From NCBI RefSeq assembly GCF_002934455.1, contig NZ_PTIR01000003.1:124001-188000 (forward strand): 64,000 nucleotides of DNA, read 5' to 3'. The translations under genes and the position numbers were made by a program. Under the pieces are notes generated by a model that was not told the DNA's origin, made no database searches, and saw only the letters and a list, made by a program, of their open reading frames with translations. This DNA is from Trinickia symbiotica. GTDB taxonomy: Bacteria > Pseudomonadota > Gammaproteobacteria > Burkholderiales > Burkholderiaceae. Shown here piece by piece: positions 27,117 to 47,433 of the stretch (within the stretch, counting starts at the first letter, position 1; each line of letters starts with the position of its first letter).

Positions 27117-28787
27117 TCACATATTCGGATAGTTCGGACCGCCGCCGCCCTCGGGCGTGACCCAGACGATGTTCTGCGTCGGGTCCTTGATATCGCAAGT
27201 CTTGCAGTGCACGCAGTTCTGCGCGTTGATCTGCAGGCGGTCGCCGCCGTCATCGTTCTTCACGAATTCGTACACTCCCGCTGGACAGAAGCGCGTTTCC
27301 GGGCCCGCATAGGTCCGCAGGTTCACGTCGACGGGCACCCTCACGTCCTTAAGTGTCAGGTGGGCCGGCTGATTTTCCTCGTGATTCGTATTGGAGAGGA
27401 ACACAGAAGAAAGACGATCGAAAGTGAGCTTCCCGTCAGGCTTCGGATACTCGATCGGCTTGCTGTTCGACGCGGGCTCGAGCATCTCGTGATCGCGATG
27501 GTGATGATGCAGTGTCCAGGGCACCTTGCCGCCAAGCAGCTTTTGTTCGAGGCCAACCATCAGCGTGCCGAGATACAGGCCCTTGCTCATCCATTGCTTG
27601 AAATTGCGCGCCCTATAGAGTTCGTCATACAGCCAGGATTGCTTGAACGCTTCGGGATACGCCGTGAGTTCGTCATGCTGACGGCCGACTTGCACGGCTT
27701 CAAATGCGGCAACAGCGGCGAGCATGCCGGTCTTGATCGCCGCGTGGCTGCCCTTGATGCGCGAGGCGTTCAGAAAGCCCGCATCGTCGCCTGCCAGCGC
27801 GCCACCCGGGAACACGAGCTTCGGCAGCGACATGAGTCCGCCCGCGGTAATTACACGCGCGCCATACGAAATGCGCTTGCCGCCTTCGAGCACCTTGCGG
27901 ATCTCCGGATGCGTTTTGTAGCGCTGGAACTCCTCGAACGGCGAGAGGTAGGGGTTCGAATAGCCGAGGCCGACGACGAAGCCCACGACCACCTGGTTGT
28001 TGTCCGCGTGGTAGAGGAACGAGCCGCCGTACGTCTGCGTATCGAGCGGCCAGCCTGCCGTATGGATGACGAGCCCGGGCTGGTGCTTCGCCGGATCGAT
28101 CTCCCAGAGTTCCTTGATGCCGATGCCGTAGACCTGCGGATCGGCATCGCGGTCGAGCTTGAATTGGTCGTTCAGCTGCCGGCCGAGGTGTCCGCGCGCG
28201 CCTTCGCAAAAGAGCGTGTATTTCGCATGCAGCTCCATGCCGAGCTGGAAGTTCTCGGTCGGCTCGCCGTCTTTGCCGATGCCCATATTGCCAGTCGCGA
28301 CGCCTTTAACCGAGCCGTCTTCGTTGTAGAGCACCTCGGCGGCCGCAAAGCCCGGGAAGATCTCGACGCCGAGCGCCTCGGCCTGTTGCCCCAGCCAGCG
28401 CGTGACGTTGCCGAGGCTGATTACGTAGTTGCCGTGGTTCTTGAAGTTGTCGGGCAGCGCCCAGTTCGGCGTCTTGAAGGCGCGTTTCTCGGACAGGAAG
28501 AGGAACCGGTCTTCGGTGACGGGCACGGTCAGCGGCGCGCCTTTGTCCTTCCAGTCAGGAATGAGTTCATCAAGCGCACGAGGATCCATCACCGCGCCTG
28601 ACAGGGTATGCGCCCCGATCTCCGAGCCTTTTTCCAGCACGCATACACCGATGTCAACACCATTTTCTGCTGCGAGCTGTTTCAGGCGGATTGCCGCGGA
28701 CAGACCTGCGGGGCCGCCGCCGACGATCACCACGTCGTATTCCATCGACTCACGTGGGCCGTACCCTTGCTGATTTGCTTCCGCCAT
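27117..28787 (-). CDS. Electron transfer flavoprotein-ubiquinone oxidoreductase
   Basis: 556 aa membrane-bound flavoprotein that passes electrons from reduced ETF (fed by acyl-CoA dehydrogenases) to quinone. N-terminal FAD motif V-G-G-G-P-A-G-L-S-A; C-terminal [4Fe-4S] ligands in C-P-A-G-V-Y and C-V-H-C-K-T-C-D. Start ATG at 28787 with AAGGAG upstream; GTG at 28793 also possible. Stands alone; no ETF genes in the window. It links fatty-acid-type oxidation to the respiratory chain. Confidence 0.95.
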   Translation of the reverse strand: MAEANQQGYGPRESMEYDVVIVGGGPAGLSAAIRLKQLAAENGVDIGVCVLEKGSEIGAHTLSGAVMDPRALDELIPDWKDKGAPLTVPVTEDRFLFLSEKRAFKTPNWALPDNFKNHGNYVISLGNVTRWLGQQAEALGVEIFPGFAAAEVLYNEDGSVKGVATGNMGIGKDGEPTENFQLGMELHAKYTLFCEGARGHLGRQLNDQFKLDRDADPQVYGIGIKELWEIDPAKHQPGLVIHTAGWPLDTQTYGGSFLYHADNNQVVVGFVVGLGYSNPYLSPFEEFQRYKTHPEIRKVLEGGKRISYGARVITAGGLMSLPKLVFPGGALAGDDAGFLNASRIKGSHAAIKTGMLAAVAAFEAVQVGRQHDELTAYPEAFKQSWLYDELYRARNFKQWMSKGLYLGTLMVGLEQKLLGGKVPWTLHHHHRDHEMLEPASNSKPIEYPKPDGKLTFDRLSSVFLSNTNHEENQPAHLTLKDVRVPVDVNLRTYAGPETRFCPAGVYEFVKNDDGGDRLQINAQNCVHCKTCDIKDPTQNIVWVTPEGGGGPNYPNM

Positions 28788-29021
28788 CCCCACTCACTCC
28801 TTGGTCTCTTGACGCCGTGGCCATGCTCGTTGGACTGGGCCCGTCGAGGGCGCCGTCAACAGGGGATTTGCATTTGGCATTTCCCATAGTCGACGACGAG
28901 AAGGAGTATATATAAATGAATGCCGTATAACAATATGAACGCATCGGCCACGGGGACACCTCAAGCGAGACCCATCGTGCGTCCAGGGGCCAACCCACCG
29001 TTCGCCGCGTCAGCGCGGCAA

Positions 29022-29840
29022 CTATTGTTGGACCAGATCGTAAGCAGCCAAAGCGGCTATCTCCGTTACGCCGCCATCCACGGGCAAGCACGTGCCCGTA
29101 ATGAATCGCGATTCATCGCTGGCGAGAAACAGCGCGGCGGCCGCAACGTCCCACGCGTCTCCTTCCAATGGAAGCGGTGCAATCTTGCGCCGGCGCTCGC
29201 GCGCCTTTTCGTTGAGCATGCTTTCCACCATGGGCGTGAAGATGTGCCCCGGCGCGATCGCATTTGCGCGAACGAAATCGCGGCCGTACATCACCGCGAG
29301 CTCGCGCGTAAAAGCGACCATACCGGCCTTCGACGATCCATACGCGGCGGAGCCATGACTGCGGATGCCGGCAACCGAGCTAATGTTGACGATGGCTCCG
29401 CCTCCGCGCGCCACGATCTTCGGCACGGCGCTGCGGCTCATCAGGAACGCGCTTTTCAAATTGACATCGATTACGCGATCCCACGACGCTTCGTCGATAT
29501 CCTCCAACCGCCCCGGCGCGCCCGATATTCCGACGTTGTTCACGAGGATGTCGAGGCCGCCATATCGCTCAACGGTCTCATCGACAATGCGCGCGCATAC
29601 GGCGCTATCGGTGACGTCTCCGGTCGAAATGAAGGCCTGACCACCTGCGTCCGTAATCAGCGTCAGCGTCTCCGCGGCCCTCTCGTGTTGCTGATCGACG
29701 AGGCAGACTGACGCGCCCTCCGCCGCAAAGAGGCAGGCAATTGCCTTGCCCGTGCCGAACCCGTGGCCGAGCGACCCGGCCCCGGTCACGATCGCGACCT
29801 TGCCGCTTAGGCGTTCATGAAAAACTTTTGGAGAAGGCAT
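29022..29840 (-). CDS. SDR family oxidoreductase
   Basis: 272 aa classical short-chain dehydrogenase: T-G-A-G-S-L-G-H-G cofactor loop, N-N-V-G, catalytic S in I-S-S-V-A-G and Y-G-S-S-K. Probable NAD(P)-dependent alcohol/ketone oxidoreductase. Divergent from the marR-luxC operon with a 270-nt shared promoter region. No clear ribosome site before the ATG; substrate unknown. Confidence 0.88.
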   Translation of the reverse strand: MPSPKVFHERLSGKVAIVTGAGSLGHGFGTGKAIACLFAAEGASVCLVDQQHERAAETLTLITDAGGQAFISTGDVTDSAVCARIVDETVERYGGLDILVNNVGISGAPGRLEDIDEASWDRVIDVNLKSAFLMSRSAVPKIVARGGGAIVNISSVAGIRSHGSAAYGSSKAGMVAFTRELAVMYGRDFVRANAIAPGHIFTPMVESMLNEKARERRRKIAPLPLEGDAWDVAAAALFLASDESRFITGTCLPVDGGVTEIAALAAYDLVQQ

Positions 29841-30110
29841 GCTGTAGTCGATTGGCGTAAATCGATCGTCACGCGCGGGGCACTACGCAGGCAAGCGTTC
29901 GCTCACGCGCGCCAACACCGCGGCCGGGGACGCTTCCAGACGGACCAGCTTAGCCCTCGGTCGCACAAATTGCAACAGGTGGTTGCATTATCCGCGACAA
30001 CGCATTCCGTCGCGACATGGGGAAAACCACGCCTCATGGCTCGTTGCATATTTTGAATGACGTGCATATAGTTGTCTGCAGATGCAGATACCTATTGAGC
30101 AGGAAAAACA

Positions 30111-30608
30111 ATGAATCTCGTGGAAACCCCCACGCTGGAGCAGACGTTCGACGGCGCTGAACCCGCGCGATTGCTGACTCCGGACGAATACCGGACGGAA
30201 GAGAGCGTCGCGTTCAAGATGAATCAGGTTCATCTTCTGCTGGGTGCCGAAATCGACCGCAAGCTCGCCGCCAGCGGGCTGTCGGCTATCCAGTGGGGAA
30301 TTCTGAAAGCGCTCTACGACGGACGTGCTCGCACACCGACCGCTCTTTGCCGCATCCTGCTTGCGGACAGCGGCGCCATGACTCGCAAGCTCGATTCGCT
30401 CGAAGCGCGCGGGTTGATCGAACGAATTCGCAGCACGTCCGATAGACGCAGCGTCGAACTCGCATTGACGGCAACCGGTCGTCAATTGCTGCGTGAAACC
30501 TTGCCGCACATTGTCGAAACGAGGAACCGCCAGCTTCGCGGCTTCACAGCCGATGAAGTCGCCACCGTCAAGCATCTTCTCGACCGAATGATCGTCAACC
30601 TGAGCTGA
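30111..30608 (+). CDS. MarR family transcriptional regulator
   Basis: 165 aa winged-helix regulator (W-G-I-L-K-A-L-Y-D, then R-I-L-L-A-D-S-G-A-M-T-R-K-L-D and the R-S-T-S-D-R-R-S wing). MarR proteins usually respond to small aromatic or lipid ligands. It is 78 nt upstream of the luxC-like gene on the same strand and probably regulates that operon and the divergent SDR. Confidence 0.93.
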   Translation: MNLVETPTLEQTFDGAEPARLLTPDEYRTEESVAFKMNQVHLLLGAEIDRKLAASGLSAIQWGILKALYDGRARTPTALCRILLADSGAMTRKLDSLEARGLIERIRSTSDRRSVELALTATGRQLLRETLPHIVETRNRQLRGFTADEVATVKHLLDRMIVNLS

Positions 30609-30686
30609 TCGGCGACGGCCATGCCGGAACTGAGCGGCGAGTCCGCTGAAGCTCAACGCGTACCCCTATGAAAAAAGGAGCAGTCC

Positions 30687-32147
30687 ATGGAGCATACTGA
30701 AACCCTCGCAGGGCAAAGCGAGACGCCGACACAGGCATCAAGTCCCGCCCCGCTGCCGGTTCCCCATGTGTACCGCGGTCGCACGGTAACCGGAAACGCG
30801 GTCAAGCACGTGTCGCGCGATCTGGGCCAGGGTTTCTGCACGCCTAAAGTCGAGCTGGATGATCTCGTCTGGCCGCGCGCCGAGGCGGGTCCGGCATTCG
30901 ACGTCCCCATTGCGCGGATCATCGACTTCCTCGTCGAGCTTGGCCCACGTCTTCATCTCGACGTCAATCCGCTCATGCAGGCCGCTCTCGAATCGATGAT
31001 TCAGGTAAGCCCGCTGGGGCGCCGGATTCTGGAAAACTGCTATCGGGATATTCCCAATCTTTTCGCTCGCGGAGTGATAGAAGACGAGTTGCGCGTGAGT
31101 CTCGGCGATGCGGGCCTCGTCGACGGCTGGGTTGCACGCACGCTGCGCGGCCGGCCGAGCCGTCTGCGGGCATTTCCTCCGCGTCTGGTGCATATCCTGG
31201 CGGGCAACTCGCCGATGGTCGCCGCCATGAGCGTCATGCGAGCAGCGCTGACGAAGGGCGTGCATTTGCTCAAGCTGCCGTCCAACGATCTCTTCACGGC
31301 CACCGCCATCTTGCGCACGATGGCCGAGATCGACCCGCACCATCCGGTCACGCAATCCTTTTCGGCGGCTTATTGGAGAGGCGGTGACGAGAACGTCGAG
31401 TCCATCCTTTATCGCCCGCAGTACTTCGACAAAATCGTCGTGTGGGGCGGCGAAAGCGCGGTGCGCCATGCGATGCGGTACGCGGGCCCCGGCCTGGAAC
31501 TGGTTGCGTTCGATCCCAAGGTCTCGATCTCGCTAATCGGCCGAGAAGCCTTCAGCTCCGACGAAGTCCTGCGCGAAGTTGCGCGCGCGGGCGCCGCCGA
31601 TGTGCTTTCGTTCAACCAGGATGCGTGCAACGCAAGCCGCTATCAGTTCATCGAAGGGAACGAAGACGACGCCGACCGCTATTGCGAGCGACTTGCGCTC
31701 GCCCTCGGCGAAGATTACCGGTATGGCGACGGGCAAGGCCCGCTCGTGCCGAGCGACATTCGCGAAGCCGTGGACGTGCTGCGCGAGATGGAACCGCTCT
31801 ACCGCGTGTTCGGCGGCTATGACGGCAAGGGGCTCGTCATTCGCTCGGATGAGATGGTCGACTTTCATCCCATTTGCAAGACCGTAAACGTCGTTCCGGT
31901 AGCCAGCCTCCGAGACGGGGTCCGCTACGCGACCGTCGCCACACAGACGGTCGGCATCTATCCGCCTCATCGCGTGACCGAGGTGCGCGATGCGCTCGCA
32001 TGCGCGGGCGTTCAGCGCATCGTGGCATTGGGCGAATCGATTTCGGATGGAGTCGGCGGCTATCCGCATGACGGCATGTTCCCCATCCATCGATTCATGA
32101 AATGGGTGTCGGAGGAATCGGGCCCGAACCAGGAAGAGACGCGATGA
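30687..32147 (+). CDS. LuxC-like acyl-CoA/acyl-protein reductase
   Basis: 486 aa of the LuxC family, which reduces an activated acyl group (thioester) to aldehyde with NADPH. Nucleotide region L-A-G-N-S-P near residue 171; the nucleophile is Cys314 in F-N-Q-D-A-C-N-A-S, matching the Q-x-A-C motif of bacterial LuxC. Its end overlaps the next gene (ATGA). In bioluminescent bacteria LuxC works with LuxE and LuxD; here LuxE-like genes follow, but neither luxD nor luxAB is present. The physiological acid is unknown. Confidence 0.92.
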   Translation: MEHTETLAGQSETPTQASSPAPLPVPHVYRGRTVTGNAVKHVSRDLGQGFCTPKVELDDLVWPRAEAGPAFDVPIARIIDFLVELGPRLHLDVNPLMQAALESMIQVSPLGRRILENCYRDIPNLFARGVIEDELRVSLGDAGLVDGWVARTLRGRPSRLRAFPPRLVHILAGNSPMVAAMSVMRAALTKGVHLLKLPSNDLFTATAILRTMAEIDPHHPVTQSFSAAYWRGGDENVESILYRPQYFDKIVVWGGESAVRHAMRYAGPGLELVAFDPKVSISLIGREAFSSDEVLREVARAGAADVLSFNQDACNASRYQFIEGNEDDADRYCERLALALGEDYRYGDGQGPLVPSDIREAVDVLREMEPLYRVFGGYDGKGLVIRSDEMVDFHPICKTVNVVPVASLRDGVRYATVATQTVGIYPPHRVTEVRDALACAGVQRIVALGESISDGVGGYPHDGMFPIHRFMKWVSEESGPNQEETR

Positions 32148-33532
32148 TGCAAACCCTTTCTGCCCTATTGCAACTCACCGAGGTTTCGGATCCCTTCCGC
32201 AACGCGCCTGAGAACCTCGCTGCCGCGCAGCTGCAGGCCGTAGGCGAACGGTTCGCGCAGCGCCGCCAGCAGATTCGTATTCTCGACAAGCGGGCCAACG
32301 AAGCGGGCGTCACCGAATTGAGGACGCTGAGCGACGCGGTGCCGTTGTTGTTCGCCGACGCAGTCTTCAAGAGCTATCCCGATTCGTTCATCGAGCACGG
32401 CAAATGGCGCCATCTCACCGCATGGCTTCAAACGCTCGCGACGCACAAGATAGATGGACTCGACTACGAGAAGATCGCCGATCTCGACGACTGGATCAAC
32501 GAATTGCGCCGCAATGGCCACTACGTGATGAGCTCGAGCGGCACGTCGGGCAAGCAGTCGTTCATCTACCAGAGCGAAGCGGACCGTGAACTTGGCTGGC
32601 GTCTGCTTGCCCAGGGCATTCGCTGGGCGGCAAGCGGCATGCGCGACCCGTCACGCCGCTACCCGGTGTTCCTCTTGACGCCCTCTTCCGGCTCCTACAC
32701 CGGCACCGAGCGCATGGCGAAGTTCGGCGAGTCGATCGCGCAGCCCGGCGACATTCACTACATGTCGGACGTACCGCAAAGCGCTGCCCACACTACGCGA
32801 ATGGCACGCATGCGACGGGCGATCTCGGACGGCACCGCGCTGCCCAGTGAAATCGAAGCGTTCCAAAAGGAGAACCTTGATCGCAGTGAACGCGTGCAAG
32901 CGGATTTCCGGCGCTTCATCGATCAGCTACTCGAGCGGCGTCGTGAACCTATGTTCATCATGGGCATGATGGGCATGCTCTACCAAATCGTCGCCACCGC
33001 ACGCGAACGGGGCATTCCGGACGGTGATTTTCACCCCGATACGATCATCAGCATCGGCGGCGGCAAGAAGGGGGCGAACTTGCCGGAGGATTTCCAGCAA
33101 CAGTGCGAACGCTTCTTTAACTTCAATGCGACGAACTTCAACGACGGCTACGGCATGGGCGAAGTGTCGGGATTTTGCCCATGGTTTCACGAAGCGAAGG
33201 CATGGGCGGTGCCGCCGTGGCTCGTCCCGCTCGTGCTCGACTCGACCGGCGAACAACTGCTGAATCCGCCCGACGGGAAAGGCATCGTCGAAGGTCGGCT
33301 AGCGATGATCGACCTGATTGCCGACGGCCGCTGGGCTGGCGTGATCAGTGGGGACAAGGTCATCGTTGAGTTCGGTCACTGCATAGACGGCGTGCGCACG
33401 CCCATCATCCGCGACGTGGTGCGCTACAAGGACCTGCCGGGCGGCGACGACAAGCTGTCATGCGCCGGAACGATCGACGCCTATGTCCGCGGAGAAATCG
33501 CAGACATGACCGAAGCCCGCAGCGCTAACTAA
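32144..33532 (+). CDS. LuxE-like acyl-protein synthetase (first copy)
   Basis: 462 aa, LuxE family (adenylate-forming acyl-protein ligase). The P-loop-like S-S-S-G-T-S-G-K is at residues 130-137. It activates a carboxylic acid as acyl-AMP and loads it on its own Cys or a partner's. The start at 32144 overlaps luxC (ATGA). It shares with the second LuxE-like protein the same motif position and the E-Q-L-L-N-P and K-L-S-C-A-G-T segments. Confidence 0.9.
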   Translation: MMQTLSALLQLTEVSDPFRNAPENLAAAQLQAVGERFAQRRQQIRILDKRANEAGVTELRTLSDAVPLLFADAVFKSYPDSFIEHGKWRHLTAWLQTLATHKIDGLDYEKIADLDDWINELRRNGHYVMSSSGTSGKQSFIYQSEADRELGWRLLAQGIRWAASGMRDPSRRYPVFLLTPSSGSYTGTERMAKFGESIAQPGDIHYMSDVPQSAAHTTRMARMRRAISDGTALPSEIEAFQKENLDRSERVQADFRRFIDQLLERRREPMFIMGMMGMLYQIVATARERGIPDGDFHPDTIISIGGGKKGANLPEDFQQQCERFFNFNATNFNDGYGMGEVSGFCPWFHEAKAWAVPPWLVPLVLDSTGEQLLNPPDGKGIVEGRLAMIDLIADGRWAGVISGDKVIVEFGHCIDGVRTPIIRDVVRYKDLPGGDDKLSCAGTIDAYVRGEIADMTEARSAN

Positions 33533-33560
33533 ATCAATCGTCCTCGATATTGGAAAAGCC

Positions 33561-34421
33561 ATGACAACGACAAATGAAGAATCGACAAAGCCAGCCGTGT
33601 GGTTCATTACCGGCGTCTCGTCCGGCTTCGGCCGTTCCCTCGCGCAAGCGGTCCTCGCCCGCGGCGACCAGGTCGTCGGCACGCTGCGCAAGGACGCGCA
33701 GATCGCGGAGTTCGAAGATCTCGCGCCCGGTCGCGCCCACGGTGTTCTGCTGGACGTAACCGACGCCGCATCGGTGCCTCGGGCCGTCGCGCAGGCCTTG
33801 AGTCGAGCCGGCACGATCGATGTGCTCGTCAACAATGCCGGTTACGGTCTATTCGGCGCGCTCGAAGAGGTCTCCGACGCGGAAGCACGTCAGCTATTCG
33901 ATACGAATGTGTTCGGCACAGTCAACGTCATCCGCGCCGTGCTGCCGCATTTTCGTGAGCGAAAGCGCGGCCATATCGTGAACTTTTCGTCGGTGGCCGG
34001 CGTGATCGGCATCACCGGCTGCAGCTGCTATTGCGCGTCGAAGCACGCCGTCGAAGGGCTTTCGGAATCGCTCGCGCGGGAACTGAAACCGTTCGGTATC
34101 CATGTGACCATCGTCGAGCCGGGTGGCTTCCGCACGAATTTCGCGGGGGGCTCGATGAAGTGGAGCCAGGTCGAATCACCCGACTACGCAGAGACCGTGG
34201 GCAACATGCGCCGGTTCATGAGCAGCTACCACGGCACGCAGACAGGCGATCCCGCGAAAGCCGCCGACGCCGTTGTGCGTGCGGTGTCCGCCGACACGCC
34301 GCCGCTTCGTCTGCCGCTCGGGCCGGACGCCGTCGACGTCGTCCGCAAGAAGCTAGCGGCCGTGCACGAGAACCTCGAAGCGTGGCTCGACGTATCGAGC
34401 TCCACCGACTTCGATCACTAA
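33561..34421 (+). CDS. SDR family oxidoreductase (in the lux-like operon)
   Basis: 286 aa short-chain dehydrogenase: T-G-V-S-S-G-F-G, N-N-A-G, S-S-V-A-G-V-I-G and Y-C-A-S-K active site. It sits between the two LuxE-like genes, 28 nt after the first. Could reduce the aldehyde made by LuxC/LuxE to an alcohol, or oxidise an alcohol substrate. Substrate unknown. Confidence 0.9.
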   Translation: MTTTNEESTKPAVWFITGVSSGFGRSLAQAVLARGDQVVGTLRKDAQIAEFEDLAPGRAHGVLLDVTDAASVPRAVAQALSRAGTIDVLVNNAGYGLFGALEEVSDAEARQLFDTNVFGTVNVIRAVLPHFRERKRGHIVNFSSVAGVIGITGCSCYCASKHAVEGLSESLARELKPFGIHVTIVEPGGFRTNFAGGSMKWSQVESPDYAETVGNMRRFMSSYHGTQTGDPAKAADAVVRAVSADTPPLRLPLGPDAVDVVRKKLAAVHENLEAWLDVSSSTDFDH

Positions 34422-34458
34422 CACTCACGCTAACGCAACTCGTTGCTCTGGAGACGAC

Positions 34459-35823
34459 ATGTCTGCTCTGGACCCGTTCTACGCAATGCTTCGCCGTGAC
34501 GGCGATCCTTTCCGTCATCACCCCGGGAATCTTCGTGAGCTTCAACTCGCGGCAATGAAAGAGCGCTTCGCCGAGCGCCGCGGGCACATCAGGCTCTTGC
34601 GTCGTAGAGCGGACGATGTCGGCGTGCAAGACGTCAACCGTGACGCGGACATGGTGCCTCTTCTGTTCGCGCATCAGATCTACAAGAGTTACCCTGAGTC
34701 ATTGATCGACAATGGTCGCTGGCAGCACCTGGCGGCATGGCTGCAAACGCTCTCCAGCAAACCGGTGGGCGAGGTCGACCTGAACGGCGTGGACAACGTC
34801 GACGCATGGATGGACCGTTTGCGCGAAGCGGGACACTACGTGTTCAGCTCGAGCGGCACGTCCGGAAAATGCAGCTTCATCAGCCAGACGCGAAGCGATC
34901 TCGAGAACGTCACCGAGTCCTGCGTGAAGCTCGGCGTCTACGGCAACGCATTGATCCGACGAGACTTCGGCAAGCGCCCGGTATTTCTGATGATGCCGCC
35001 GGCCGGCGCCCATCGCCATATCGAGCCCATACTGAATGCGGCGAAACGGCTCGGTGCTGAAAGCACCCTGATGTTCGACGAACCGGTGCTTGCTTCCGCA
35101 ACGATTTCGATGGGTCGCATGCGCCGCGCAATCGCCGATGGGTCCGCCAAACCGAGTGAAGTCGCTGCATTCCAGGAACATGCGGTGGCGCGCCAGCGCC
35201 ACACCGGCGCAATGATCGACCGGTTTCTCGACAAGCTCGCCGCGCGGCGCGATGTTCCGGTGCTCGTGCAGGGCAATTGGTCGCTGCACTGGACGCTCGC
35301 GGACCGCGCGCGCCAACGCGGCATCGCCGATGGTATCTGCCACCCCGATACGGTGATCACGACCGGTGGCGGGTTGAAGGGCACCTCGGCGCCCGCTGAT
35401 TATCGGGAGCAGATCATCCGCTTCTATGGAATTCGTGCGGAAAACGTCCAGAACAGCTATGGCATGTCCGAGATGATCGGGACCGGCCCATGGTCGGACG
35501 TTGCGCAAGGCTACGCGATCTGCCCTTGGATCGTACCGTTCGTCCTCGACAAGAGCGGAGAGCAACTGCTGAATCCTTCGGACGGCAAGGGCGTCGTCGA
35601 GGGACGCTTTGCGTTCTTCGATCTGTTGGCCGAAGGGTACTGGGGCGGGTTCATCACCGGCGACAAAGTCACGATCGATTTTTCACCGGCGGGAAACACC
35701 GACGGGCTGCAAGGGCCGCTGGTTCGACAGGTCGGCCGTTATGCCGACCTCGAAGAAGGCGAAGACAAGCTCTCATGTGCCGGCACGATGGAGTCGTATG
35801 TCCGCGGAATGATCAACGTCTGA
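34459..35823 (+). CDS. LuxE-like acyl-protein synthetase (second copy)
   Basis: 454 aa paralogue of the LuxE-like protein two genes upstream, with S-S-S-G-T-S-G-K again at 130-137. Two LuxE-type proteins and one LuxC may handle two different acids or form a heteromeric complex. It ends 6 nt before a hairpin. The C-terminal third has the conserved D-K-S-G-E-Q-L-L-N-P and E-D-K-L-S-C-A-G segments. Confidence 0.9.
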   Translation: MSALDPFYAMLRRDGDPFRHHPGNLRELQLAAMKERFAERRGHIRLLRRRADDVGVQDVNRDADMVPLLFAHQIYKSYPESLIDNGRWQHLAAWLQTLSSKPVGEVDLNGVDNVDAWMDRLREAGHYVFSSSGTSGKCSFISQTRSDLENVTESCVKLGVYGNALIRRDFGKRPVFLMMPPAGAHRHIEPILNAAKRLGAESTLMFDEPVLASATISMGRMRRAIADGSAKPSEVAAFQEHAVARQRHTGAMIDRFLDKLAARRDVPVLVQGNWSLHWTLADRARQRGIADGICHPDTVITTGGGLKGTSAPADYREQIIRFYGIRAENVQNSYGMSEMIGTGPWSDVAQGYAICPWIVPFVLDKSGEQLLNPSDGKGVVEGRFAFFDLLAEGYWGGFITGDKVTIDFSPAGNTDGLQGPLVRQVGRYADLEEGEDKLSCAGTMESYVRGMINV

Positions 35824-35940: not shown

Positions 35941-36654
35941 ATGTCCAAACCAATGGCAGTTCAGGCTCCCGCCGGAGTCTCGAGGCTCGCTGCGGCGGGC
36001 AAACCACGAACGGCCGGCCGGCCGGCGCACGACGATGCCGTGGAACTGCGAGAGCACGTGCTCGATGCAGCCAAAGCCGTTTTCATGAGGGAAGGCTTCG
36101 GCGCCGCGCGGGTCGAGGAAATCGCATCGCTGGCTGGCGTCAGCAAGACCACCGTTTATCGGCAGTTCGGCACGAAAGAAGAGCTCTTTCGCTCCATTGT
36201 CTGGCGGGGGATGGCCGATCTGCGCGGCAAGATCGCTCTCGAACTCGAACCCGGCGGCGATTTTTCGGCGAACTTGGCATCCCTGATCGATGCGCTGGTC
36301 GAGCACATGGCGATACCGGACAGCGTACATACATCCCGGCTCGTCATAGGCGAAGCGGTTCGCTTTCCGGATATCGCCAAGCAGTTCCTGCAGTTCGTGA
36401 ACACGATGCTCGAGCCGCTAACCAGCGTGCTGGAGGCTGCGGCCGCCAGGGGAACGATCGACATCGACAACCCGGCGAACGCGGCGAGCGATTTGCTGAC
36501 GCTCGTCACCGGTGCCCCTGAAGTGCACCTGGCGATACAGACCACGCGTGCCGAGCGCAAACGCCGGGCTGAGCGGATTCACCGGCTTTTGTTGAACGCG
36601 TGGAAGTATCGTGCCACGCAGCAGTCCAAGGCTCGGGGCAAGCCGGCGCCATAA
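35941..36654 (+). CDS. TetR family transcriptional regulator
   Basis: 237 aa. Helix-turn-helix about 60-90 (V-E-E-I-A-S-L-A-G-V-S-K-T-T-V-Y-R-Q-F), C-terminal ligand-binding helical domain. An unusually long basic N-terminal tail (residues 1-35) precedes it. Follows the lux-like operon; converges with the thioesterase. Possible regulator of either neighbour. Confidence 0.92.
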   Translation: MSKPMAVQAPAGVSRLAAAGKPRTAGRPAHDDAVELREHVLDAAKAVFMREGFGAARVEEIASLAGVSKTTVYRQFGTKEELFRSIVWRGMADLRGKIALELEPGGDFSANLASLIDALVEHMAIPDSVHTSRLVIGEAVRFPDIAKQFLQFVNTMLEPLTSVLEAAAARGTIDIDNPANAASDLLTLVTGAPEVHLAIQTTRAERKRRAERIHRLLLNAWKYRATQQSKARGKPAP

Positions 36655-36690: not shown

Positions 36691-37155
36691 CTAGCCTTCA
36701 ACCTCGCCCATGACCTGAAATTGTCCTGATGCCTGGGCGATGCACTTGGCGTTCGCCCAGATCCGGCAGTCCGAAAAGATGACGCGTTTTCCCGAACGGA
36801 GGACGTCGATATGGGCCTCTATCCAGTCACCCGGCTCCGCGTTCCCCATAAAGTTGACCGTCAAGCCCGTCGTCAGCACCTTCACCGCCGGCTGGCGTGA
36901 ATACTTGCTCGCCCAAGTAATGGCCGTGTCCGCCAGCATGCAAATCGCCCCGCCGTGCATCATCTGGCCGAGGTTACGATGTGCTTCCCGCACGTGCATG
37001 CCGACGGCGTACCCGCGCTCGGTCTTGCGAAAGTACGTAGGGCCGAACATCTGGTGATACGGCCCAAACGCCGGCATCAGCGTGAAGCCGTGCGGAATCG
37101 CCCTTTCGTCGTCCTGCTCGGCGCCAGCCGCCGCCAGTGCATCTGTCTGCTCCAA
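36691..37155 (-). CDS. PaaI-type acyl-CoA thioesterase
   Basis: 154 aa hot-dog protein: N-L-G-Q-M-M-H-G-G-A-I-C and A-D-T-A-I-T-W-A, the signature of PaaI/4HBT-II thioesterases, which free CoA from stalled acyl-CoA intermediates. The start is an unusual TTG at 37155 with a strong GGAGG six bases upstream; no ATG gives a better frame. Divergent from the OYE gene, with an inverted TGATA/TATCA repeat between them. Confidence 0.88.
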   Translation of the reverse strand: MEQTDALAAAGAEQDDERAIPHGFTLMPAFGPYHQMFGPTYFRKTERGYAVGMHVREAHRNLGQMMHGGAICMLADTAITWASKYSRQPAVKVLTTGLTVNFMGNAEPGDWIEAHIDVLRSGKRVIFSDCRIWANAKCIAQASGQFQVMGEVEG

Positions 37156-37267: not shown

Positions 37268-38419
37268 ATGGATGCCAGCCCGCTTTTTGCCCCGCTCACG
37301 GTTCGAGGCGTTACGCTCGCCAACCGTATCGTGATGTCACCCATGACCCGCGGCTTCTCGCCGAACGGACTGCCCGGCGATGACGTGGCCGCTTACTACC
37401 AGCGGCGCGCGCAGGGCGAGACCGGGCTCATCATCACGGAAGGTGTCGGCATCGATCATCCGGCTGCGCTTGGAGAAGCCGGTCTCGGCGAGAATTCGAT
37501 TCCGGTGTTGGCCTGCGAGGCGTCGGTGGCGGCCTGGCGACGCGTGACAGACGCGGTACATGCGAGCGGCGGCGTCATCTTTCCGCAGTTGTGGCATATG
37601 GGGCCGATGAAAGAGGCGAATACGGGCCCCGTTCCCGAGGCTCTCCCGCTGCGTCCCTCGGGCGTATGGGGACCGGCCGGACGCGCGACATCGCTGGACG
37701 CAGGCTACATGGAGCGGGTCATGCCGCCAACGCGTCCGATGACCGACGCGGAAATCGCCGACGTCATCGCCGCTTATGGGCGAAGCGCGCGCTATGCGCG
37801 CGCCGCCGGATTCGATGGCATCGCTATTCATGGAGGCCACGGCTATTTGATCGATGCCTTCTTGTGGGCCGAAACCAATCAGCGTGCGGACGAGTGGGGT
37901 AAAGACCTTGCGGCGCGCAGCCGCTTCGCCGCCGAAGTCGTCCGTGAAATCCGAACGAGCATCGGCGACACCATGCCGGTCACCTTCCGCTTTTCGCAGT
38001 GGAAACAGCAGGACTTCCGCGCGCGTCTCGCCAACGATCCGCAGGAGCTCGAGCAGATCCTCACACCGCTCGCGGACGCGGGTGTCGATATCTTCGAGGC
38101 GAGCACGCGTTATTTCAATCGCGCGGAATTCCCGGGCTCGGAGATGAACCTCGCCGGCTGGGTGAAAAAGGTCACGGGCAAGTTTTCGATGGCCGTAGGA
38201 GGAATCGGCATCAACAAGGGGTACTACGATTCGATGGCCGGCGCGGATACGGTTGCGCAAGCCGATCTGACGCCTCTCGTCGAGCGCTTCGCGCGCAATG
38301 AATTCGATCTTGTCGGCGTCGGACGCTCGCTCCTGCACGATCCGAACTGGGCGCGGCGTGCGCGCCTTGGCGAGCCTTTTCTCGGATTCAACACGGATTC
38401 GCTTGCTCGCCTGACCTGA
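37268..38419 (+). CDS. FMN-dependent Old Yellow Enzyme family oxidoreductase
   Basis: 383 aa TIM-barrel flavoprotein. Family stretches N-R-I-V-M-S-P-M-T, A-A-G-F-D-G-I-A-I-H-G-G-H-G-Y-L and the phosphate-binding G-R. Reduces alpha,beta-unsaturated ketones or enals with NAD(P)H. It sits alone before a convergent SDR operon. In terpenoid and alicyclic catabolism such enzymes saturate enone intermediates. Confidence 0.93.
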   Translation: MDASPLFAPLTVRGVTLANRIVMSPMTRGFSPNGLPGDDVAAYYQRRAQGETGLIITEGVGIDHPAALGEAGLGENSIPVLACEASVAAWRRVTDAVHASGGVIFPQLWHMGPMKEANTGPVPEALPLRPSGVWGPAGRATSLDAGYMERVMPPTRPMTDAEIADVIAAYGRSARYARAAGFDGIAIHGGHGYLIDAFLWAETNQRADEWGKDLAARSRFAAEVVREIRTSIGDTMPVTFRFSQWKQQDFRARLANDPQELEQILTPLADAGVDIFEASTRYFNRAEFPGSEMNLAGWVKKVTGKFSMAVGGIGINKGYYDSMAGADTVAQADLTPLVERFARNEFDLVGVGRSLLHDPNWARRARLGEPFLGFNTDSLARLT

Positions 38420-38483: not shown

Positions 38484-39185
38484 TTACATGCGTCCTGTGA
38501 CCGGAATCAGCGCACCGGTCACTCCCGATGCGGCGCCAGACGCGAGAAAGAGAATCACATTGGCGATTTCTTCGGGCCGCACCCAGCGCGAAAAATCTGC
38601 GTCGGGCATGTCCTTGCGGTTTTGCGGCGTATCGATGATGCCGGGCAGAATCGCGTTGACTGTAATGGAACGGCCCTTCAGCTCTTCGGCCAGTGCCTCT
38701 GTCAAACGCATGACGCCGGATTTCGAGGCCGCATAGGCGCCCATGCCTGCGCCTGCTTTGAGCGCGGCGCCAGCGCCGATATTGATGATGCGCCCACCCT
38801 CCGCGCTACCGGCAAAATAATCGAGCGCAGCTTTCGATGCCGTCGCCGCCGTGCGCACGTTCATTTGGTACATCAGATCCCATGTGTCGAGGCTGCCGTC
38901 CGCCAGCGTTTCCCAGCGAAAGCCCCCCGCCACATTGACGATCGCATCCAGCTTGCCGATCTGATCGACCGCCGCCGATATAGCGGATCGCGCCGCCTCG
39001 AGATCGGTCAGCTCGACGCCGCCACGCCACCACGCGGCTTGCAGCTGCGCCGCGCTCGCGTTTTCTGGCGCGGGAGCCTTGTCGATCAGCGCGACCTTCC
39101 AGCCATTCTCGGCAAACGCGCGACCCACAGCGCGTCCCAATGTGCCGAATCCACCGGTCACCACCACTACCCGTTGCATATGCAA
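38484..39185 (-). CDS. SDR family oxidoreductase
   Basis: 233 aa, shorter than most SDRs but with T-G-G-F-G-T-L-G, N-V-A-G-G and the Y-A-A-S-K active site. Last of three genes on the minus strand after the amidohydrolase and crotonase. Likely dehydrogenates an alcohol intermediate of that pathway. Confidence 0.9.
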   Translation of the reverse strand: MHMQRVVVVTGGFGTLGRAVGRAFAENGWKVALIDKAPAPENASAAQLQAAWWRGGVELTDLEAARSAISAAVDQIGKLDAIVNVAGGFRWETLADGSLDTWDLMYQMNVRTAATASKAALDYFAGSAEGGRIINIGAGAALKAGAGMGAYAASKSGVMRLTEALAEELKGRSITVNAILPGIIDTPQNRKDMPDADFSRWVRPEEIANVILFLASGAASGVTGALIPVTGRM

Positions 39186-39237
39186 TCACTCCCTTGCCCT
39201 GCGCCGCCGCCCTGCCCGCATAGAGCATAAAAGAACG

Positions 39238-40032
39238 TCAACGTCCCTTGAACACCGGCTCTCGTTTCTCGCGAAACGCGTTGACCGCCTCTTGATGGTC
39301 TTCGGTCAAATTCGAGAGCGCCTCGTAGGCAATCGACGCATCGAGAATGGAATGTGCCAGCTGCTTCAGCCCGATGTTGATCGACGCCTTTGTCCATTGA
39401 ATAGCACGGGCGGCACCGTTCGCCAGACGCTTGGCCATCGCATCGACGACCGCATCGAGCTCATCGGCCGGCACTGCATGATTGATCAGTCCGAATCGCG
39501 CCGCTTCGCCTGCGCTGAGCAGATCGCCGGTCAAGAGGTACTCCTTGGCCTTGGCGTAACCCACGAGCTGCGGCCAGATCACCGCGCCGCCATCGCCCGC
39601 CACGAAGCCGACTTTCACGTGAGGATCGCCGATCTTCGCGTGATCGGCGGCATAGCTCAAATCCGAGAATAGCGCGATCGTCGCGCCGAGGCCGATCGCA
39701 TGTCCGTTGATCTTCGCGATGACCGGCTTCGGACAATCGAGCATCGAGAAGACGATTTTCTTCGCACGCTGCATGCCTTCGAGAAACAGCGCCGGATTGT
39801 CGATGACATGCTGCATATGCTCGATGTCGCCGCCCGCGCTGAAGGCGCGCCCGGCACCCGTCAACACAACGACACGAGTCTCGGCATCCTCGGCCACATC
39901 GAGGAAAAGCCGCGACATCTCGATGTCCATCTGCTCGTCGAACGCGTTCAGCGTTTCCGGGCGGTTGAGCGTGACGGTCAGGATGCCGCCGTCGCGTTTA
40001 AGCAATAACGCCTTATAGTCGGAAATATCCAT
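39238..40032 (-). CDS. Crotonase-family protein, not a standard hydratase
   Basis: 264 aa crotonase fold. The two glutamates that define hydratases are missing: the first position is Thr118 (I-G-L-G-A-T-I) and the second falls in D-P-H-V-K. Instead His138 and Asp147 are nine residues apart, as are His145 and Asp154 of 6-oxocamphor hydrolase, a crotonase that cleaves a beta-diketone. Other enoyl-CoA isomerases or hydrolases of this group share the A-G-D-G-G stretch, so the match is suggestive only. Start at 40032, 5 nt after the amidohydrolase stop. Confidence 0.88.
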   Translation of the reverse strand: MDISDYKALLLKRDGGILTVTLNRPETLNAFDEQMDIEMSRLFLDVAEDAETRVVVLTGAGRAFSAGGDIEHMQHVIDNPALFLEGMQRAKKIVFSMLDCPKPVIAKINGHAIGLGATIALFSDLSYAADHAKIGDPHVKVGFVAGDGGAVIWPQLVGYAKAKEYLLTGDLLSAGEAARFGLINHAVPADELDAVVDAMAKRLANGAARAIQWTKASINIGLKQLAHSILDASIAYEALSNLTEDHQEAVNAFREKREPVFKGR

Positions 40033-40037
40033 ATCGG

Positions 40038-41234
40038 TTACACGTGCAGCGGAATGAATCGGCGACCGTTGTCGTACATGATCTTGCGCGTGTCTTCTTC
40101 GGATAGCGAGCCACACGCCTCCGACGCGAAGTCCTTCGGCTCAGGCACCCCTTCCGCGTGCGGATAGTCGGAGCCCATCAACAGAAAGTCCGAGGAACCC
40201 GTCTGAGCGATGATCTGGGCGATGTCGTCCTCCGGATAGGCGACCACGAAAACATTCTCCTTGAAGATCTGGCTGGGGCGCGTCTTCAGCTGTCCGCACG
40301 GCCAGTAGCCATTCTTCGCCATCCCCCGGCACTTGTCCATTTTCACGAGCATCGAAGGGACCCATTCGGCGCCGTTTTCGGCACTGCACAACTTGACGCG
40401 CGGGAAACGCTCGAAGAAGTTGTAGAAGATGAACGACGACAGTGTTTCGATCACCGGACGCTCACCGTAACCGTGCATCCAGACGAATGCCGTCTGACGC
40501 TGGCGTGACTGCTGCACCGGCTCCCCCCAAACCGCCATGTGGTCCTTCATGTAGATCGCTTCCGACACATGGAAGGTGACACGCACACCCGCTTCGTTGA
40601 GGATCGACCAGAACGGATCGAAGTAAGGATCCGCAGGCGCACGGCCATTGAATGGGCCCATCGGCATCAGGACCACGCGCACGCCGTTCGCGACGAGCCA
40701 CTTGGCTTCCGCAACGGCCGCATCGAGATCGTCGAGCGTGACGACCGGCGTCGTGTAAATGCGGTCCTTGTAGTTGAAGCCCCAGTCTTCCAGCATCCAA
40801 CGGTTGTACGCATGGAGGACTGCATTCGCCGCAACGGGCTCATTCAAGTACGAAATGCAGGCGACCATCTCACCGATGTACATCGTGCAAGCCTCGACGC
40901 CGAATTCGTCCATCTTCGTGAGGCGCGCGTCGCGATTGAACATGTCCGGCGTGGGGGGAACGCGCATATCGACGTTGTCCTTGCCGTCTTTCATCGCGCG
41001 CAGCCATTCGTGCAGCTTGCCGGGCGGCGGCACATGCCCCTCTGCCGACGTGTAGCCCTCGCTGATTTCCACCTTGCGCTCGCCGACATACATGCAGCGG
41101 TTGCCGTCTGCCGTGGTGCGGCTGGTAAAGGACCAGTCTTTCTTGAACTGCTCGGGCAAGTAGCGGCTGAACGCGTCCTCCACTTCGTAGAAGTGCGTGT
41201 CGGCATCGTAGATCTTCCCTTGATACGGTTGCAT
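40038..41234 (-). CDS. Amidohydrolase family protein (ACMSD-like, PF04909 type)
   Basis: 398 aa. Metal-binding D-A-D-T-H near residue 12 and G-S-D-Y-P-H-A-E-G near residue 345 are the family's ligand motifs. Members hydrolyse or decarboxylate ring-cleavage acids. Start at 41234 with AGGAG upstream. First gene of the operon with the crotonase and SDR; a GAAC-N3-GTTC operator lies 181 nt upstream. Confidence 0.9.
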   Translation of the reverse strand: MQPYQGKIYDADTHFYEVEDAFSRYLPEQFKKDWSFTSRTTADGNRCMYVGERKVEISEGYTSAEGHVPPPGKLHEWLRAMKDGKDNVDMRVPPTPDMFNRDARLTKMDEFGVEACTMYIGEMVACISYLNEPVAANAVLHAYNRWMLEDWGFNYKDRIYTTPVVTLDDLDAAVAEAKWLVANGVRVVLMPMGPFNGRAPADPYFDPFWSILNEAGVRVTFHVSEAIYMKDHMAVWGEPVQQSRQRQTAFVWMHGYGERPVIETLSSFIFYNFFERFPRVKLCSAENGAEWVPSMLVKMDKCRGMAKNGYWPCGQLKTRPSQIFKENVFVVAYPEDDIAQIIAQTGSSDFLLMGSDYPHAEGVPEPKDFASEACGSLSEEDTRKIMYDNGRRFIPLHV

Positions 41235-41414
41235 GAAGCGTCTCCTGGTTGTGGGGAGCGCTGCCAAACGTGCGCCCTTGAGAGAAGTATCGGCGCAAGG
41301 TCTCGACCGAAAAACTCTCATATCGAAGTCAAAAGTGGCGATATCGATTCGATATCGATCCGCGCATCGTGTCTAACCTTAGCATGCCAGTATGGGTGAC
41401 ACCGGTAGACAATG

Positions 41415-41427: not shown

Positions 41428-41470
41428 TATATAAGCATAGTTGAAGCGATACATGCAACCGGAGACGTGT

Positions 41471-42892
41471 ATGCAAGCCGAAGCACTGGCACAAGCACAT
41501 AGAACGCAACGGCTGGCCGTGCCGCCGCGCGGTTTCATGATAGCGATACTGCTGGCCGCTGTGGCAGCCTCGTCGGGCATCACCGTCATCTACACCGTGC
41601 TGGTGACGCTTTACAAGGCTTTCCCCGCGTCCGATTCCGTGAGCTGGACCGTCACAGCGTACTGGCTCGGCTCAGCCGGCTTTGCCGCGGTGAGCGGCCG
41701 CTTGGGCGACCTGCTCGGCTATCGGCGCATCCTGCTCCTGGTGATGACGATTGCGTCAGCGGGCGCCGTCGTCGCCGCGTGCGCAACCGATGTCGCCATG
41801 CTTATCGCGGGGTGCGCGATGCAATCGGTCGCGGCGGGGATCACGCCGCTTTCCATCGGACTCGTGCGCGAGAACCTGCCGCCCGGCAGGGTGCCGGCCG
41901 CCGTGGGCGTGATCAGTGCGGCAGGAATGGTATCGGCGGGGCTGATCTACATCTGCGCCGGCGTCGTCGTGGATCGCTATTCGTGGCAAGGCGGCTTCTG
42001 GTTCAAGGTAGCGCTTTGCCTGGTGGCGGTTGCTGCCGTGCGCCTGTGGACTCCGCCTTCGCCGAAGCGCCTCAGCGCACGGATCGATTACTTGCGCGGC
42101 CTCGCTTTTGCGCCCGCGCTCTGCGCCATCCTGTTCGCGGTGCAGCAGAGCCGTGTATGGGGGCTGGGCGATGCGCGTCTATGGGGCTTAATCGGTGTGG
42201 GGATCGTCGTGCTCGTCCTGTGGGCACGGCACCAGCACGAGGCGGCGCATCCGCTTATCAATGTACGCCTGCTCAAGGCGCGTCAGATCGTATTGGCCAA
42301 TGCATGCATGGCATTCGTCGCCGCGGGGGGCATGCAATTAGGGCAGGTTTTCTCCCTGCTCGCTCAGCAACCGGCGGGAACGCACACCGGATTCGGACTG
42401 AGCGCAACGGCCGCCGGCTTGCTGATGTTCAGCGTCAACATTGTCTCGCTCGTCGCGAGCCCTTGGAGCGGCCGCGTAGCCGCCCGGTACCAGGCCCGCA
42501 GCGCCGCCTTGATCGGCATGGCCATCCTGGTCGTTGCCTGGGCCTCGCTGATCGTGCTTCATCGACGTCTGCCCCTTTTCGTTCCGGGCGCGGCGCTGTG
42601 CTCGTTCGGTCTCGCTTTCGCCAGCACGGCGCTGTACAACCAGATCGTCGAGGCGGCGCCTGCCCATCAGACCGGCGAGGCAACGGGCATGCTCTACGTG
42701 TTCTTCTCGTGCTTCTTCGCCGTGGGCGCTCAAGCGGTCTTTTCGCTGCTGCGCAGCGCGTCGGCAAAATACGACGGTGGATGGTTTGCCGCCGATAGTG
42801 GCTATGTTTCAGTGTTTGCCTATATTGCGTGCAGCTCGATTGCCGGACTGCTGATTGCTTACACGCTGCCGAAACGCCGCGCCCAGTTATAA
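41471..42892 (+). CDS. MFS transporter, DHA2/EmrB-QacA-like
   Basis: 473 aa with about 14 hydrophobic helices; the motif A family sequence G-R-L-G-D-L-L-G-Y-R-R is after helix 2. It could export a toxic intermediate or import substrate. GGAG six bases before the ATG at 41471 sets the start; two further ATGs lie upstream. Opposed to the amidohydrolase operon. Confidence 0.9.
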   Translation: MQAEALAQAHRTQRLAVPPRGFMIAILLAAVAASSGITVIYTVLVTLYKAFPASDSVSWTVTAYWLGSAGFAAVSGRLGDLLGYRRILLLVMTIASAGAVVAACATDVAMLIAGCAMQSVAAGITPLSIGLVRENLPPGRVPAAVGVISAAGMVSAGLIYICAGVVVDRYSWQGGFWFKVALCLVAVAAVRLWTPPSPKRLSARIDYLRGLAFAPALCAILFAVQQSRVWGLGDARLWGLIGVGIVVLVLWARHQHEAAHPLINVRLLKARQIVLANACMAFVAAGGMQLGQVFSLLAQQPAGTHTGFGLSATAAGLLMFSVNIVSLVASPWSGRVAARYQARSAALIGMAILVVAWASLIVLHRRLPLFVPGAALCSFGLAFASTALYNQIVEAAPAHQTGEATGMLYVFFSCFFAVGAQAVFSLLRSASAKYDGGWFAADSGYVSVFAYIACSSIAGLLIAYTLPKRRAQL

Positions 42893-43798: not shown

Positions 43799-43938
43799 GA
43801 TTTTCCCCATGAATGGATGGTATCGATTATACGGGAACTATTCACATAGTTTTACAACGATCATAAGCTCGCACATCGCCACGCCCTCCGGATTCGGGAA
43901 TACGCTAGGGGCGCGCTTGATCTCAATTGAGCTATAGT

Positions 43939-46497: not shown

Positions 46498-46543
46498 ATC
46501 GAATCACCCTTGAATTCAAACCGGCCGCGCTGGCCGCCACGCG

Positions 46544-47338: not shown

Positions 47339-47420
47339 GCACTGTCTCCTCGCGGTGTTTTCCGTTAGCAATCCGACTTCAGGCTGGATTTGACAAAGCC
47401 GGACCATCCATTCAGAATGA

Positions 47421-47433
47421 TAAACGTCGTTCA
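47421..47433. promoter_or_regulatory. Shared operator motif, between two hydratase operons
   Basis: TAAACGTCGTTCA differs from the perfect palindrome at 43939 by one arm base and the centre. It lies in the divergent promoter of the 46544 and 47557 genes. Confidence 0.55.

Follow-up and report, generated by a model that had tools for sequence, protein, structure and literature searches.

In this work we analysed a window of 64,000 nucleotides of Trinickia symbiotica DNA (contig NZ_PTIR01000003.1, positions 124,001 to 188,000), and within it an operon of five open reading frames, coding for a MarR-family regulator, LuxC, a first LuxE-type protein (E1), a short-chain dehydrogenase/reductase (SDR) and a second LuxE-type protein (E2), all of them open and intact on the forward strand, with a TetR-family regulator gene behind them (Table 1). 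As we read it, the operon probably specifies a LuxC-LuxE-type carboxylic acid reductase with two components, serving the catabolism of a steroid- or terpenoid-like ring compound. A sequence-only reading of the locus had proposed a dedicated acid reductase made of the four genes downstream of marR; the catalytic part of that proposal has been strengthened, while its self-contained character has not survived.

Table 1. Features of the operon and of the surrounding cluster (positions in the window)
Feature	Position	Strand	Evidence
Electron-transfer flavoprotein (ETF)-ubiquinone oxidoreductase (ETF-QO), left part of cluster	27117..28793	-	82-89% copies in relatives; 62% in G435 (other order of the class); named in P. 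sprentiae record
SDR, conserved left neighbour	29022..29840	-	
Putative promoter and candidate MarR operator	30044..30095	+	hexamers by eye; inverted repeat; conservation
MarR-family regulator	30111..30608	+	PF12802 49.3 bits; PF01047 also matched
LuxC (acyl-protein/acyl-CoA reductase), Cys314 intact	30687..32147	+	PF05893 157.7 bits; PDB 7xc6_A E=5.1e-32
E1, divergent LuxE-type acyl-protein synthetase, 462 aa	32144..33532	+	profile match to 7xc6_E; Cys440 alignment
SDR oxidoreductase, PRK06180 subfamily, candidate aldehyde/alcohol step	33561..34421	+	NCBIfam 374.8 bits, cut-off 298
E2, second LuxE-type acyl-protein synthetase, 454 aa, Cys440 and SSSGTSGK intact	34459..35823	+	
TetR-family regulator, syntenic in relatives	35941..36654	+	PF00440, PF14246
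PaaI-like hotdog thioesterase	36691..37155	-	PF03061
Old-yellow-enzyme (OYE) family flavin reductase	37268..38419	+	PF00724
SDR, enoyl-CoA hydratase/isomerase (ECH), amidohydrolase	38484..41321	-	
MFS transporter of cluster, syntenic in relatives	41441..42892	+	
IclR-type regulator	43004..43810	-	
CoA module: CaiB (-), ECH (-), ECH, nitronate monooxygenase (NMO), CaiB, acetyl-CoA hydrolase/transferase (AcHyd), thiolase	45256..53059	.	Pfam
Rubredoxin (53136-53303) and cytochrome P450 a	53136..54539	-	
SDR, HpcH-type lyase, MaoC-type protein, EstA-type hydrolase, GMC oxidoreductase, P450 b, TetR, ferredoxin reductase	54767..63813	.	

LuxC scores far above the PF05893 cut-off of 21 bits, and its sole PDB match at E<=0.01 is the LuxC chain of the solved LuxC-LuxE complex. 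Cys314, reported as intact by the sequence-only reading, aligns with a cysteine of that chain and is invariant in 12 of 12 LuxC rows, which bears out the earlier description. We take LuxC to be a member of the aldehyde dehydrogenase superfamily.

The two E proteins are 46% identical over 440 columns and share the motif SSSGTSGK, located at residues 130-137 in both when E1 is read from position 32144; their identical placement, noted earlier, holds with this start. The name LuxE had first rested on that one motif, and is now backed by a profile (A2) built from 16 E-family members, whose best PDB match is the LuxE chain of the same complex (7xc6_E, 2.7e-8), followed by phenylacetate-CoA ligases at 4.6e-5 and weaker; LuxC and the E family each find in 7xc6 their best match in the PDB. 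In an alignment of 15 sequences, comprising nine E-family members, the LuxE proteins of genomes G389, G536 and G575 and those of three short LuxE-LuxC pairs, Cys440 of E1 and E2 shares a column with the C-terminal cysteine of LuxE in all 15 (residue 362 in G389 and G536), presumably the acyl site of the enzyme (Cys364 in V. harveyi). The GGxK, E, D and R positions likewise fall in common columns in 15 of 15. The operons of G389 and G536 were judged luxCDABE-like from the size and order of their reading frames, G575 being another LuxC locus.

Within the E family, Cys440 is invariant in 16 of 16 rows, and the SSGT-type ATP-binding motif is kept with small changes (SSVTSG in L019, a Pseudonocardia plasmid locus); members from other lineages are 25-38% identical to E1. 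The Pfam LuxE family, PF04443, matches neither E1 nor E2 at E<=10, nothing in the whole window genome at E<=1, and just one of the 16 E-family members (best E=0.0012); a phmmer search of the PDB with E1 alone retrieved two glycosidases and a designed-looking protein only (best E=0.0021). The profile, the cysteine column, the synteny and the substitution rates given below argue against a chance occurrence of SSGTSG in E1 and E2, which we reject. Acid reduction by LuxC with a LuxE-type partner is a well supported prediction from sequence. The E proteins appear to be LuxE-type proteins missed by Pfam, the partner of LuxC being annotated as "hypothetical protein" in the public records examined, and LuxC loci of this kind may be read as carboxylic acid reductases rather than as leftovers of bioluminescence.

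The listed start of E1, at 32102, is too early: the start was moved to 32144 because the ATG found there overlaps the luxC stop codon (ATGA) behind AGGAAGAG, and because the annotation of Paraburkholderia sprentiae starts the gene at the luxC stop. Position 32144 is most likely the true start, and LuxC and E1 are, given the overlap of stop and start codons, probably translationally coupled. Upstream of marR, a promoter-like element was read by eye, consisting of TTGCAT (30044-30049), a 17-nt spacer and TATAGT (30067-30072), the latter sharing bases with a 13-nt inverted repeat (30068-30080/30083-30095). Of 11 aligned upstream rows, 10 retain the two hexamers; the eleventh, from L006, where the MarR match lacks the first 30 residues, is not equivalent and does not align. 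The arrangement is consistent with an autoregulated MarR operon. Median ratios of nonsynonymous to synonymous substitution rates (dN/dS), calculated over 36 pairs for each gene from the window and 8 of the 10 operon loci (L011 and L014 left out), are 0.056 for LuxC, 0.073 for E1, 0.101 for the SDR and 0.082 for E2: E1 and E2 are both under purifying selection.

The survey for the same gene order, suggested by the sequence-only reading, found MarR-LuxC-E1-SDR-E2 in 10 of 10 loci (L005-L014), some with damaged genes: LuxC and E1 are broken in L014, MarR lies in two overlapping pieces in L011 and is shortened, as said, in L006. An E1 orthologue at about 80% identity or more is held by 14 of 144 Paraburkholderia genomes, full-length in 12, split over a contig end in G264 and broken in G157. 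Three further genomes (G185, G210 and G251) carry LuxC-SDR-E2 without E1, accompanied by a clear MarR in G185, a partial one in G251 and none found in G210; E2 is the paralogue present in all 17 Paraburkholderia operon carriers. The operon of the Vsou symbiont, a metagenome-assembled genome (G157, L014), is decaying, with E1 and LuxC in pieces and OYE and ETF-QO broken, E2 and the SDR still matching at full length, each in one piece; close by there is a further E-LuxC pair, whose LuxC match is shortened (L068, G157:C4:200000-219900).

In a wider scan of 398 genomes drawn from the phylum, profile A2 matched 15 places in 13 genomes. Among the LuxC matches listed, one that exceeds the cut-off is found no more than 4 kb away, on the same contig, at 14 of these 15 places, G597 being the only one without. 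Full-length divergent E-family members were found in three of the 398 genomes, namely the window genome (G000), G353 and G435; the remaining matches are partial, and the four examined (G569, G307, G385 and G389) are LuxE-sized, 368-381 aa. Among 72,556 plasmid records, 17 contain an E match, and LuxC adjoins E in all seven examined. The other lineages examined carry E-LuxC pairs with a single E.

A first tree, calculated without G435, shows E1 and E2 as sister clades, each split alike. When G435 is included, its protein groups with E1 and E2 in a single clade (100/99), in which G435 joins E2 with a support of 93/87, below the mark that the tool sets for firm support; in both trees the rows outside Paraburkholderia have long branches. 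If this grouping is right, the duplication that gave rise to E1 and E2 would predate the split from G435, since the G435 protein groups with E2, and G435 and the E2-only lineages would have lost E1.

A catabolic cluster of some 60 kb, inherited as a unit, includes the operon and extends about 24 kb beyond the end of the window. On the plasmid of P. sprentiae WSM5005, the genes from the operon onward are those for a thioesterase, OYE, SDR, ECH, amidohydrolase, MFS transporter, IclR regulator, SDR, transhydrogenase, CaiB, ECH, NMO, AcHyd, thiolase, rubredoxin, P450, SDR, lyase, MaoC, EstA, GMC enzyme, P450, ferredoxin reductase, ferredoxin, two acyl-CoA dehydrogenases, FadD, 2-oxoacid dehydrogenase, a flavoprotein of the 3-ketosteroid-Δ1-dehydrogenase type (KstD), Rieske oxygenase, ETF, MMPL, YCF48, DUF1329 and DUF1302. 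In the window genome the gene set and its order are largely unchanged, with identities of 80-96% from CaiB to ferredoxin in the window, dropping to 44-72% from MMPL to DUF1302. For two P. sprentiae genes, the ECH beside GMC and the SDR after ferredoxin, no counterpart was found in the window genome, the transhydrogenase genes not having been searched for.

The genes of the CoA module are 80-96% identical to those of P. sprentiae and 50-80% to those of G435, a genome from another order of the class, where relatives of all seven adjoin a single E and LuxC. The 56-kb contig of G435 carries an E protein 51.5% identical to E2 and a LuxC at 66%, together with CaiB1 (76%), ECH2 and ECH3 (77% each), ETF-QO (62%), NMO (72%), CaiB2 (51%), AcHyd (65%), thiolase (80%), rubredoxin (78%), P450 a (69%), an SDR (50.5%) and weaker matches to DUF1329 and DUF1302; comparisons of SDR5 with G435 and with L005-L014 used the in-frame P. 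sprentiae SDR5 as query. A P450 46% identical to P450 a is found about 10 kb from LuxC-E in Novosphingobium. Since the G435 contig carries both, the link of LuxC-E to this pathway has been kept, or re-made, across orders. The acid reductase for metabolism proposed by the sequence-only reading is thus retained as probable, because LuxC stands with two partners of the LuxE type and light genes are absent from its side; a self-standing four-gene system is not supported, as E1 is missing in three genomes, single-E pairs exist elsewhere and the operon belongs to a larger cluster.

The nature of the substrate is suggested chiefly by the KstD-type gene, whose P. sprentiae copy reaches 923.1 bits against an NCBIfam cut-off of 789 for 3-ketosteroid-Δ1-dehydrogenase; the window genome copy is 94% identical to it. 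The gene is found at 88% identity or more in all 17 Paraburkholderia operon carriers, in two pieces in G157, and lies on the contig of the operon in 15 of them, about 34-50 kb away; G216 has it together with a mere 33% E match. As in bacterial steroid clusters, the KstD-type enzyme is accompanied by acyl-CoA dehydrogenases, crotonases, a thiolase, a CoA ligase and an MMPL transporter. The Rieske enzyme is not clearly KshA by family, and to our knowledge neither the CaiB/NMO/AcHyd set nor LuxC-E is a standard part of steroid clusters. We write "steroid- or terpenoid-like" rather than "steroid" because the Rieske protein is not assigned to KshA and the steroid reading rests mainly on the KstD-type gene. 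As to an extradiol ring-cleavage dioxygenase, only a VOC-family name appears in the P. sprentiae annotation; NMO, ECH3, SDR and P450 b gave no pathway-specific PDB match, the best for NMO being nitronate monooxygenases of the PA1024 type. Gibberellin synthesis was considered and not adopted, no terpene cyclase being present among the annotated genes of the window.

The operon is associated with nodulation genes. NodA was detected in 27 of the 144 Paraburkholderia genomes (as a fragment in G247), and nodA is present in 12 of the 14 E1 carriers and in 15 of the 130 others (Fisher p = 1.2e-8, kinship not corrected for). Among 11 genomes of the window genus, E1 and NodA are both found in the window genome only, the latter intact (G000:C32:3613-4194). 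The 10 named contigs bearing the operon belong to Paraburkholderia or, for H160, Burkholderia, and we take most of these strains to be known legume nodulators; NodA was found in eight of the nine whose genomes could be searched, the exception being the Vsou symbiont. The association is not one of simple neighbourhood, because the P. sprentiae plasmid that bears the operon lacks NodA, and G281 has the two on different contigs. The operon's tie to a cluster that bears KstD and, in Paraburkholderia, goes along with nodA leads to a testable claim: Burkholderiaceae that nodulate legumes would break down a steroid- or terpenoid-like compound, perhaps plant-derived, by way of a reductive step.

The closest known system is the LuxC-LuxE fatty acid reductase of luxCDABE operons, represented by 7xc6, with which the present one shares the active-site cysteine of LuxC and the SSGTSG, GGxK and C-terminal cysteine signatures of the adenylating partner. 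It differs in the setting, a catabolic cluster, in having two E paralogues, both outside the Pfam LuxE family, and in the absence of luxAB and luxD, none of which occurs among the annotated neighbour genes in the window, as the sequence-only reading had stated, the whole genome not having been searched for them. A luminous operon, or the relic of one, was discarded on these grounds, namely no luxAB or luxD among the neighbour genes and an E family outside PF04443. LuxC and LuxE genes are also known outside light production from flagellin-modification islands, where they are reported beside acyl carrier protein and fatty-acid genes (PMC4875605). The short LuxE-LuxC pairs met in our scan matched the E profile only weakly and in part; in three of them (L078, L079 and L080, from G569, G307 and G385) a C-terminal GCSD replaces GCA, and they may represent a separate LuxE type, perhaps of the flagellin-modification kind. 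The mel2 locus of Mycobacterium marinum resembles the operon in having a LuxC-like domain, along with other lux-like genes, without light, and differs in that mel2 is reported to contain no clear LuxE homologue (PMC1793995); a mel2-like oxidative stress locus was for this reason not adopted.

Single-E loci, in which E adjoins LuxC as it does here, were found on plasmids of Mycobacterium avium (L022), Pseudonocardia (L019), Caballeronia (L020), the Sphingobium Tom strain (L021) and Novosphingobium US6-1 (L018). Their partners vary: an ecdysteroid-kinase-like (EcKL) gene and an SDR in M. avium, a polyketide synthase in Pseudonocardia, an alcohol dehydrogenase with a sulfatase and FGE, its maturation factor, in Caballeronia, KstD-like and Rieske-like genes in Sphingobium, P450 and GMC genes in Novosphingobium. 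On the Sphingobium sp. TomMM7A plasmid, pTomMM7Aa, E-LuxC lies amid KstD-like, Rieske-like and GMC genes; the accessible portion of an mBio paper on tomatine-degrading Sphingobium mentions neither luxC nor this strain. The existence of such pairs and of E2-only operons led us to reject the four genes as a self-standing unit. What we describe is probably LuxC-LuxE chemistry which, light genes being absent beside it, forms a single step within a large catabolic cluster and has known mechanistic kin. The sequence-only reading knew of no clear description of the operon, and our search, limited to open PubMed Central papers, likewise found no published account among the papers listed.

The interpretation is carried by gene order, intact motifs and cysteines, purifying selection, kinship to LuxE and LuxC and co-inheritance with the cluster, all read from sequence. 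From these we infer the acyl transfer and its direction, the use of NADPH, the parts played by SDR and MarR and the class of substrate. In the scheme that we propose, E1, E2 or both would use ATP to adenylate a carboxylic acid, accept the acyl group on Cys440 and hand it to Cys314 of LuxC, which would reduce it with NADPH to the aldehyde; the SDR would turn the aldehyde into an alcohol, or otherwise use it. MarR may repress the operon through the inverted repeat over the promoter, and be released by a pathway intermediate. Two-component acid reductases of this kind may serve as biocatalysts for hindered cyclic acids.

Several observations weigh against this interpretation. Neither E1 nor E2 has a significant Pfam or NCBIfam match, and LuxC, at 149.7 bits, falls far short of the cut-off of 750 of the NCBIfam LuxC equivalog, NF052251. 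The AlphaFold model of E1, which rested on 20 shallow rows, is poor (pLDDT 56.7, pTM 0.52), and the folds it matches are those of PaaK/ANL enzymes rather than of LuxE. For a catabolic cluster, it would be unusual to spend ATP and NADPH on reducing an acid. As to the substrate, the Rieske oxygenase beside KstD best matches glycine betaine/carnitine monooxygenases, far below the cut-off, and is not clearly KshA, and the KstD family also has non-steroid members, with lower scores.

Alternatively the pathway may run in the oxidative direction, P450s and alcohol dehydrogenases producing an aldehyde that LuxC, acting as an aldehyde dehydrogenase in keeping with its presumed superfamily, would oxidize, E or CoA removing the acyl group as acid or thioester. 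The P. sprentiae cluster does list two P450s, a GMC enzyme and several SDR or alcohol dehydrogenases, and no aldehyde dehydrogenase is listed for it and its flanks (490-605 kb, in plasmid gene tables that are incomplete). Oxidation, however, needs no dedicated adenylating partner with an acyl-accepting cysteine, and a FadD-type CoA ligase is already part of the cluster. Reduction is favoured because, at almost every place where it occurs, the adenylating E adjoins a LuxC, and because further E-LuxC loci pair with genes that fit reduction better: in Caballeronia an alcohol dehydrogenase lies beside E-LuxC and a wax ester synthase about 7 kb away, and in Pseudonocardia E-LuxC directly follows the polyketide synthase. 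We therefore consider the oxidative direction unlikely.

A role of E1 and E2 as PaaK-type acyl- or aryl-adenylate/CoA ligases acting elsewhere in the pathway, with LuxC as an ordinary acyl-CoA reductase and no transfer from protein to protein, would agree with the structural comparison, in which the low-confidence E1 model gave 14 Foldseek matches at E<=0.001, all of the ANL/PaaK type (best 4.2e-7) and including EhpF, PaaK and NatL2, and with the second rank of phenylacetate-CoA ligases among the PDB sequence matches. LuxE nevertheless precedes them by a clear interval in E-value, the cysteine of the acyl site is aligned and invariant, and the LuxC neighbourhood is near-obligate, which makes this role improbable. 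Still less credit can be given to a function in symbiosis, in which the pair would make an aldehyde or alcohol for export as a signal or for membrane or nodule chemistry, its place in a catabolic cluster being a coincidence of linkage. The enrichment of E1 carriers among nodA genomes would be accounted for; 15 of the 27 nodA genomes, however, lack the E1 operon, and in another order a single-E/LuxC pair lies among these same catabolic genes, so that we regard this as very improbable.

Within the reductive interpretation, genes found near the operon suggest a fate for the predicted alcohol. An EcKL gene (PF02958) directly precedes marR in most relatives and directly follows LuxC in M. avium; a match is present in G435 and in all 14 E1 carriers of Paraburkholderia, the gene being split in G153, broken in G157 and, in G253, located on a contig other than that of the operon. 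None was found in the three E2-only genomes, in 10 Paraburkholderia non-carriers or in five congeners of the window genome, and the window genome and G216 also lack one at E<=1e-20. E1 and EcKL seem to come and go together in Paraburkholderia (L061, L062 and L063 lack both); the window genome, with E1 and no kinase, and G435, with a kinase and no E1, are exceptions.

To the left of the operon, P. sprentiae has a block for the sulfate donor 3'-phosphoadenosine-5'-phosphosulfate (PAPS) and its transfer, made of CysN, CysD, CysQ, VOC, sulfotransferase, DUF1214 and alcohol dehydrogenase genes, the right part of which is visible in six more loci (L005, L007, L008, L010, L011 and L064). The CysN-CysD-VOC-sulfotransferase-DUF1214-alcohol dehydrogenase block is common to P. 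sprentiae and G435 (L017:6981-14486 and L081:5622-12405): sulfate activation and sulfotransferase genes with DUF1214 travel with the catabolic cluster in two orders. In Caballeronia, the sulfatase and FGE lie just before E-LuxC-alcohol dehydrogenase.

The kinase-like, sulfotransferase and sulfatase genes suggest that the alcohol may be made into a phosphate or sulfate ester. A carboxyl group beyond the reach of β-oxidation, for instance on a quaternary ring carbon, might in this way be removed or unlocked, the acid passing through aldehyde and alcohol to a phosphate or sulfate leaving group, or the aldehyde being deformylated by a P450. The EcKL kinase, or the sulfotransferase with its own PAPS genes, would esterify the alcohol, and the ester would leave in an elimination or ring opening. 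If true, ring catabolism would here include a step that is both reductive and ester-activated. Esterification is countered by the window genome, which has no EcKL match, by the lack of a sulfotransferase in the window, by the damaged or displaced EcKL genes of G153, G157 and G253, and by L006, L009, L012, L014, L065 and L066, where the visible region upstream of the operon does not show the sulfotransferase block; we hold this unlocking route to be a tentative and rather doubtful proposal.

The left third of the window (1-24000) contains a set of genes for ATP synthase, along with PhaC, a MaoC/PTA fusion, acetate kinase, an alcohol dehydrogenase, a CRP/FNR-type regulator and a response regulator. 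From this gene content it may be an energy island for low-oxygen conditions, distinct from the operon.

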